From Vallitalea sp. (GTDB taxonomy: Bacteria > Bacillota > Clostridia > Lachnospirales > Vallitaleaceae): a stretch of 64,000 nucleotides of DNA. The DNA is taken from positions 1 through 64,000 of the forward strand of contig JAOASG010000016.1 in the NCBI GenBank assembly GCA_025210235.1, in the 5' to 3' direction. The translations under genes were made by a program, and so were the position numbers. The notes under the pieces were generated by a model that worked only from the letters and a program-made list of their open reading frames with translations, ran no database searches and had not been told where the DNA came from. Below, one piece after another: positions 1,650 to 36,930 of the stretch (position 1 is the stretch's first letter; every line of letters begins with the position of its first letter).

Positions 1650-1868
1650 AAATGTATCTTATATGGTATATAAAATAAGATGTTAAAAATTAATAAAGTG
1701 AAAAGGTGCTTATCTATAAATCTATAATAAGTTAAAAGGGAAAGTGGTTAGATTCCACTGCAGCCCCCGCTACTGTAAATGGTGATGAAATCTAATTATG
1801 TCATTGGGAAACTGAGAAGACTAGATAGTAAAATGATCCATAAGCCAGGAGACCTGCCTTTTTATTTT

Positions 1869-1940
1869 CTTATAGGGAAGTTATACTAATTAAGTAAATG
1901 AGATACAAGTTATTCTTATTTACTATAAGGGAACTTTCCT
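1869..1940 (+). repeat. Hairpin module shared with the trp T-box leader (copy 1)
   Basis: The outer arms CTTATAG...CTATAAG enclose a segment containing ATTAAGTAAATGAGATA, and AACTTTCC follows the 3' arm. The same 17-mer and 8-mer occur in the same order and spacing around a hairpin at 15620-15688. The shorter hairpin GGAAAGTT...AGCTTTCC at about 2072-2098 may be a collapsed relative. Confidence 0.6.
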
Positions 1941-2036
1941 GATGGACAAATTTGCTATGCGAAACGATGCTTAGTCGCTTTGTTCGATGTTCAACTTTCG
2001 GTGGGAGAGTGTAGATACGTAGAATTATTGTAATCT

Positions 2037-2061
2037 AACTGTGCCTATGCGCAGTTTTTTT
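2037..2061 (+). terminator. Intrinsic terminator of the cobalamin riboswitch
   Basis: AACTGTGC pairs with GCGCAGTT across a 4-nt loop and is followed by a run of seven T. It lies downstream of the aptamer and upstream of btuF. Confidence 0.8.
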
Positions 2062-2226
2062 GTTTTATAGGAAAGTTAATTAAGGGAGCTTTCCTAGTTA
2101 GAAATTATTATTGCAAATAATATATCAGAATTACTTTTTACTAAACTAAGTAATTGTATTTTGTTGTCTACATATATTCAATAACTGAAAGAATCTAATG
2201 TTAAAAAATAGGAGGAAATTTAAGAA

Positions 2227-15328: not shown

Positions 15329-15619
15329 ATAGATAATTTAATAATAAATTCATAAAATCTATGATTGAAAATAGTACTTTTTGGAAACTGTTTAAGCGAG
15401 TCGGCGTTTGGTGTGAGGTCCGATACAGGGAACAAATAGGAATGGGTTCATGAGATGTTTAGTGAAAGCAATTGGCAAGTAGCTTAAATCGGGATTCTCC
15501 CGTTATAGAGATAGGATATCGAATATATCATTTCCGTATCTGAAAAAGAATGTAGGATTTAAGTGGCATTGGAATACAAGGTATTTCGTCTTAATATTGG
15601 CGAAGTATCTTTTTTTATT

Positions 15620-15688
15620 ACCTTAGACAAAAGTCTGATTAAGTAAATGAGATAGAAAGATTCTCATCTATGCTAAGGAAACTTTCCA
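15620..15688 (+). repeat. Hairpin module shared with the cobalamin leader (copy 2)
   Basis: The outer arms CCTTAG...CTAAGG enclose ATTAAGTAAATGAGATA, an inner ATGAGA/TCTCAT stem, and then AACTTTCC. The stem letters differ from the 1869-1940 copy, yet pairing is retained in both. Confidence 0.6.
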
Positions 15689-15746
15689 ATAAACACTATA
15701 AGTTAACGTTATTTATAATCTTACAAAAGTTGAGTGGTACCACGTA

Positions 15747-15787
15747 AACCATAACGTCTCAATAATTGAGATAGTTATGGTTTTTTT
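15747..15787 (+). terminator. T-box regulated terminator
   Basis: AACCATAAC pairs with GTTATGGTT around an inner TCTCAA/TTGAGA stem, followed by seven T. It begins three bases after the T-box sequence, as expected for the competing antiterminator/terminator switch. Confidence 0.88.
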
Positions 15788-36827: not shown

Positions 36828-36839
36828 ATTATTAATTCG

Positions 36840-36930
36840 TTAGGTAATTGAAATACTCATTAATTTAATATTTTTAAGACGGAGATAACAAGGCATAGCC
36901 TTTTTTCTTTGTCTTATAGCAATTACTTAA
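36840..36930 (+). repeat. Inverted-repeat family member, divergent copy E
   Basis: The left end TTAGGTAATTG and right end GCAATTACTTAA are inverted repeats of the same sequence type as copies A-D. The interior carries its own hairpin (AAGGCATAGCCTTTT) that could act as a terminator-like leader. It ends 27 bp before the nrdD start. Confidence 0.45.

Follow-up and report, generated by a model that had tools for sequence, protein, structure and literature searches.

BOX elements of Streptococcus pneumoniae, regarded as parasitic and non-autonomous, include a copy lodged between the two T-boxes of a trp leader; it is transcribed together with them, and the riboswitches still seem to regulate (PMC3049150). 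Class C group II introns choose sites behind terminator motifs and are able to draw on primers of the replication fork (PMC4424553), and IS608 and ISDra2 are described as acting on the lagging-strand template (PMC6006769). Dispersed palindromic units are also known from REP/BIME sequences with their RAYT partners and from the IS200/IS605-derived PATEs. A RAYT gene commonly has its own REPs on either side, and the bcr repeats of the Bacillus cereus group, a Firmicute clade, are dispersed and non-coding with a predicted RNA structure. Insertion of group IIC introns after intrinsic terminators has reportedly been described by Robart in 2007, and to our knowledge these introns make no target duplication.

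The hairpin shared by the btuF and trpE leaders of the Vallitalea genome analysed here is very probably module A of a dispersed, non-coding mobile repeat that enters behind terminators and is non-autonomous. The BOX copy between the trp T-boxes is the nearest published case, and BOX resembles the element in being a small, modular, structured interspersed repeat; compared by description only, BOX differs in having terminal inverted repeats and making target duplications, in a leading-strand share of 60.8% (95% for the element in the congener G004) and in that no terminator targeting is reported for it in the available sections (PMC3049150). SPRITE of S. pneumoniae is, in the same sections, likewise AT-rich, with a terminator-like hairpin and T-tract, and enriched near gene 3' ends, but it consists of a single 18-bp duplex and a U-tract, whereas the element has two modules with three hairpins and lies behind a separate, gene-specific terminator. 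What distinguishes the element from BOX, RUP and SPRITE, as these are described in PMC3049150, is its target rule and how strong its orientation bias is. With group IIC introns it shares the target behind terminator motifs (PMC4424553), but those introns measure about 2 kb, whereas the element has 117 nt and no ribozyme, domain V or reverse transcriptase. The single-strand, strand-biased movement of IS200/IS605, as described in PMC6006769, is a mode that the element's orientation bias would fit; REP/RAYT systems, in contrast, have a Y1 partner, which is missing from six carriers of the element and from the surroundings of the copies at the loci examined. The bcr repeats, compared by description only, belong to a different clade. 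Structured interspersed repeats are a known kind, and with a length below 200 nt, many intergenic copies, a covarying fold and both filled and empty sites the element has the characters of a small one; its family is apparently undescribed, no publication on it or on Vallitalea repeats having been found in the literature, and its target rule is unusual.

The window, the whole stretch of 64,000 nt that was analysed, is rich in A (39.7%) and T (32.2%). As the sequence-only reading had stated, the 17-mer ATTAAGTAAATGAGATA occurs exactly at 1889-1905 in the btuF leader and at 15638-15654 in the trpE leader, with no further exact match in the window, and AACTTTCC follows downstream of it in both copies. 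The window holds seven same-strand repeats of at least 17 nt, compared with 0-4 in ten Markov-1 simulations, and the 17-mer by itself is weak evidence, nearly compatible with chance in such AT-rich DNA; chance as the source of the btuF/trpE likeness is ruled out by the genome-wide family and the held-out model matches given below. The riboswitch identities proposed earlier hold, the hosts being a genuine cobalamin aptamer and a T-box. A group II intron domain V (63-137; Rfam, 45 bits) lies at the very start of the contig (C1), upstream of an MgsA/RarA-type AAA ATPase gene (208-1524), the rest of the intron being off the contig. The btuF leader contains the following features:

1687..1875, + strand: cobalamin riboswitch aptamer, host of the insertion (Rfam RF00174, 125 bits)
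1868..1986, + strand: complete element (modules A and B) between the aptamer core and the predicted P13 (held-out model match)
1868..1940, + strand: module A, with outer stem (1875-1881/1933-1939), internal loop, 10-bp inner stem and apical loop (fold -21 kcal/mol, z -3.2; stems covary in relatives)
1941..1985, + strand: module B, two short hairpins, the second degenerate here, ending in CGCTTTGTTC (model alignment; closing GGACAAA/TTTGTTC stem in the fold)
1994..2010, + strand: predicted P13/L13 hairpin ACTTTCGGTGGGAGAGT (sequence comparison; kept in congeners; complementary to L5 CCCCC)
2038..2061, + strand: btuF riboswitch terminator, hairpin and T7 (sequence; conserved in congeners)
2063..2097, + strand: likely deletion derivative of module A, TATAGGAAAGTTAATTAAGGGAGCTTTCCTA, directly past the btuF terminator's T-run (23 bits, E 0.018, a weak match to the model; fold -10.5 kcal/mol)

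The extent of 1869-1940 given earlier for the btuF hairpin captures module A but is incomplete, the feature continuing through module B to 1986, and AACTTTCC, placed by the sequence-only reading just past the 3' arm, is in fact the 3' arm of the conserved outer stem. A cobalamin riboswitch precedes the btuF orthologue in 6/6 Vallitalea genomes (Rfam), and in all five congeners the element is absent and the aptamer runs straight into the conserved CTTTCGGTGGGAGAGTGTAGAT. The joint is exact: G002 reads CCTTTTTAT followed by GATGTTTCAGCTTTCGG, where the window reads CCTTTTTAT, then the element from TTTCTTATAGGG to CGCTTTGTTC, then GATGTTCAACTTTCGG. In corrinoid riboswitches, loop L5 pairs with L13 of hairpin P13 (PMC10653944), and by analogy we infer that ACTTTC-GGTGG-GAGAGT is P13/L13 and CCCCC is L5. 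With the repeat inserted between the aptamer and the predicted P13/L13, the aptamer core is no longer adjacent to the hairpin reading it. The 3' end of the aptamer, AAGCCAGG-AGA-CCTGCCTT with a T-run, was flagged by our script as a hairpin plus T-run at the DNA level, and this resemblance to a terminator would explain the aptamer as an insertion site. The shrunken A-like hairpin at 2063-2097 is a separate observation; the btuF leader was perhaps hit twice.

The trpE leader (15352-15787) has a single stem I and two successive antiterminator/terminator units, an arrangement found in 6/6 Vallitalea genomes:

15352..15519, + strand: T-box stem I to stem II region (Rfam RF00230, 78 bits, under the gathering score of 93)
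15580..15616, + strand: first terminator, GGTATTTCGTC/GGCGAAGTATC with T7, the insertion site (hairpin 15580-15609, T-run 15610-15616; sequence; present in 5/5 congeners)
15621..15690, + strand: module A copy, module B missing, directly past the T-run of the first terminator (held-out match, 43.8 bits)
15697..15787, + strand: second antiterminator (TGGTACC, 15697-15761) and terminator unit before trpE (weak second T-box match, E 0.029; conserved in congeners)

The earlier placement of both hairpins between aptamer and terminator needs correcting for trpE, where the copy sits past the first terminator and ahead of the second unit. Four of the five congeners lack the element in this leader, and in G001 this spot is occupied by a diverged copy (37 bits; L115:2998-3102, minus strand). 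In a single-gene TrpE tree rooted at the midpoint, the window's own genome (G000) clusters with G004, whose trpE leader has no copy, so that separate insertions in G000 and G001 would be the simpler reading; the G001 copy may represent a second insertion, made independently behind this first terminator.

When the window's own genome (71 contigs, 4.0 Mb) was searched with a single A module, at least 42 places emerged, of which about 30 had E<0.01; the copies include tandem, A-only, B-only and decayed forms. We trained a covariance model on 23 copies drawn from six genomes, leaving out the btuF and trpE copies. It recovered the btuF copy at full length (87.3 bits, E 3e-14; 1868-1986, model positions 1-117) and the trpE copy at 15621-15716 (E 5e-5). 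All five Vallitalea congeners carry the element; at E<=0.01 we counted at least 21 copies in the own genome, 21 in G001, 29 in G002, 5 in G003, 99 in G004 and 8 in G005, all lower bounds, as 150 candidates were scored per genome. At the level of the order, 19 of 246 genomes, from eight genera, carry it, and in a class-level sample of 391 genomes, containing few close relatives, only the window's own genome matched; in both searches the filters were strict and the candidates scored in each genome few, so that rare or diverged copies may have been missed. Plasmid, phage and viral contigs yielded no element matches. In related genera, three elements stand in tandem, repeating at intervals of about 114-119 nt (G019:C1:1844535-1844877 and G007:C128:15746-16100).

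The whole element spans about 117 nt and comprises a 5' module A (about 70 nt) and a module B (about 45 nt), with which most A copies continue. Module A is a long imperfect hairpin, running from TCTTATAGGAAAGTTCTA through the inner stem to TAAGGAAACTTTCCTAACG, with the conserved outer stem GGAAAGT/ACTTTCC, which is partly decayed in the trpE copy. Module B is formed by two 5-bp hairpins, the last of them terminator-like with a T-run (for example, GCGACGTAGTCGCTTTTCTTG). Terminal inverted repeats over the full element were not found, as the inverted repeat bounds only module A and leaves B outside. Four helices were supported by RNAalifold and by counts on the alignment: two-sided changes occurred in 18 of the 31 pairs tested (four of the 31 forming a candidate pseudoknot), and 92.7% of cells were paired in the real alignment, compared with 80.9% after shuffling and 44-50% in slid alignments. 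Single element sequences gave fold z-scores of -4.9 to -5.6. Within G004 alone, 20 of 27 pairs showed two-sided changes (73 matches), in an alignment fitted to the model and so biased towards it. The candidate pseudoknot (alignment A1, columns 15-18/37-40), with 73% of its cells paired and double changes in two pairs, would possibly join the internal loop to the apical loop of module A. The stem that had been singled out earlier as conserved pairing (CTTATAG/CTATAAG in btuF, CCTTAG/CTAAGG in trpE) did not covary above controls; selection on structure, suggested on the strength of that stem, is borne out by compensatory changes in other stems. The covariation shows that the fold matters, whether as RNA or as single-stranded DNA. 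The element gave no Rfam match above the gathering score, either in five element loci or in the window, and a domain V or ribozyme core was absent from the five loci in Rfam searches, the element being too short.

For two insertions in G005 (C53 and C23), the corresponding site in its near relative G003 is cleanly empty; one of the two G005 insertions lies exactly between GAAGTGCCTTTTTGT and ATGCA, directly behind the former. At a third place, G003 retains an element remnant. These empty orthologous sites show, as far as the compared genomes go, that the element was inserted. No target duplication is evident at the G005 C53/G003 and btuF/G002 joints, where 1-2 nt are possible, older insertions being too diverged for this comparison.

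The genomic setting was assessed on 83 score-chosen copies (66 from G004 and 17 from the own genome) with simple ORF calling. Confinement to riboswitch leaders, a question raised earlier together with a covariance-model search of the genome and its relatives, is not what was found: most copies lie elsewhere, 76/83 being intergenic. The sequence-only reading had named frequent occurrence outside leaders, combined with lack of covariation, as evidence against itself; the copies are frequent outside leaders, and covariation is present. A gene on the same strand lies upstream of 65 of the 83 copies, often with its stop codon 40-90 nt away. An intrinsic terminator abuts the 5' end of the element in 50/83 copies by a strict script, compared with 50/578 random intergenic spots (8.7%) and 92/693 spots located 45-75 nt behind genes (13%). 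This terminator is specific to the upstream gene, and among the 33 copies failing the test some visibly possess a terminator that the script missed. The T content preceding the element rises to 46-84%, confined to the final 8 nt, and the 45 nt before these fold with a mean of -10.6 kcal/mol, compared with -5.2 at shifted positions (p below 1e-8) and -4.6 downstream. Gene and terminator calls rest on simple scripts, and several genomes are drafts. Insertion behind intrinsic terminators, the rule that characterises group IIC introns, is therefore found for the element as well; closeness to terminators could partly reflect the survival of harmless insertions rather than targeting. In G004, 63 of 66 copies are co-directional with replication, compared with 473 of 592 genes (80%; p 6e-4), replication direction being taken from the GC skew of stretches selected for holding copies.

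These data bear directly on what the btuF and trpE hairpins have in common. That a single hairpin stands in both leaders, on the sense strand, could point to a shared riboswitch part, such as the folding aid, ribonuclease site or binding hairpin for a protein or small RNA that had been offered as options, but copies outside leaders are the majority and orthologous riboswitches do without the element (the cobalamin riboswitch in 5/5 and the T-box in 4/5 congeners), leaving this explanation extremely improbable. Of the earlier options, the mobile RNA hairpin was right in essence, the element being structured, dispersed and matched by empty sites in relatives. A module that spread by copying and now serves the cell, as a back-up terminator or in 3'-end or readthrough processing, would agree with the strong covariation, the terminator-like B hairpin, the position behind terminators and the tens of copies across a family. 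However, congeners do not conserve the sites, their copy number ranges from at least 5 to at least 99, the own genome holds many decayed or partial copies as well as tandem ones, insertions interrupt riboswitch platforms, and covariation would be equally expected if a mobilising enzyme reads folded DNA; we consider a host function unlikely.

The remaining readings concern the mobilising machinery. A REP/RAYT- or IS200/IS605-derived, PATE-like element moved by an HUH Y1 transposase would account for the sub-terminal hairpins, the orientation with the lagging-strand template, the lack of an evident target duplication and the target-like right end, and Y1 genes occur in 13 of the 19 carrier genomes. 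Against it, no Y1 (PF01797) transposase was found in six carriers, namely the own genome, G001, G016, G021, G035 and G220, several of which are drafts, and the surroundings of 30 Y1 loci, out to about 1.5 kb, contained no element match, so that RAYT/IS200 as the mobiliser is unsupported and this origin appears doubtful. In these searches no mobilising enzyme for the element came to light, nor was any copy caught in transit. Mobilisation by the machinery of group IIC introns, which target sites behind intrinsic terminators, would match the terminator target, and a group II intron domain V is present at 63-137 of the window; but this domain V is of group II with no class assignable from the contig, and the element shows neither a domain V nor a GUGYG start nor any further feature of an intron. 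Group II introns are not known to mobilise RNAs of such small size in trans, and we regard this route as improbable. Of the marks of a MITE of a DDE transposon, the element has neither an evident target-site duplication nor full-span terminal inverted repeats.

The preferred reading, a mobile repeat entering behind terminators, can be put into a working model. The non-autonomous element would transpose by entering single-stranded DNA 3' of a hairpin and T-run, helped by an enzyme acting in trans. The strand entered would be the sense strand, which for a gene on the leading strand serves as the lagging-strand template, and entry at the fork would accord with the orientation bias. The 3' end of the element, with its B hairpin and T-run, may recreate the target, and this likeness would explain the tandem copies. 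In trpE, insertion would have taken place behind the first terminator; in btuF, the element may have landed behind the aptamer 3' end, a lookalike of a hairpin and T-run at the DNA level. Because both leaders offered a terminator-like site, both would carry the element without a shared riboswitch part, and both riboswitches probably tolerate it, its fold being self-contained and placed in a linker. We advance only tentatively, as plausible but short of probable, the broader proposal of an undescribed class of minimal non-coding elements that home strand-specifically, via single-stranded fork DNA, to intrinsic-terminator hairpins, with a terminator-like 3' end that recreates the target and with the terminator of the upstream gene left in place.

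The btuF/trpE coincidence is in this way explained without a common riboswitch function, and an aptamer 3' end followed by T's, by mimicking a terminator, would provide mobile repeats with an entry route into structured leaders. The btuF copy constitutes a natural experiment, in which about 118 nt separate the aptamer core from the predicted kissing-loop hairpin and five relatives whose btuF leaders lack the element serve as controls. Terminator-directed insertion is already known for group IIC introns, and a tiny non-coding element with the same rule would make a defined enzyme search possible. Elsewhere in the window, a weak B-only model match at 36836-36910 (26.6 bits) with the terminator-like ACAAGGCATAGCCTTTTTTC is either a remnant of module B or an ordinary terminator.
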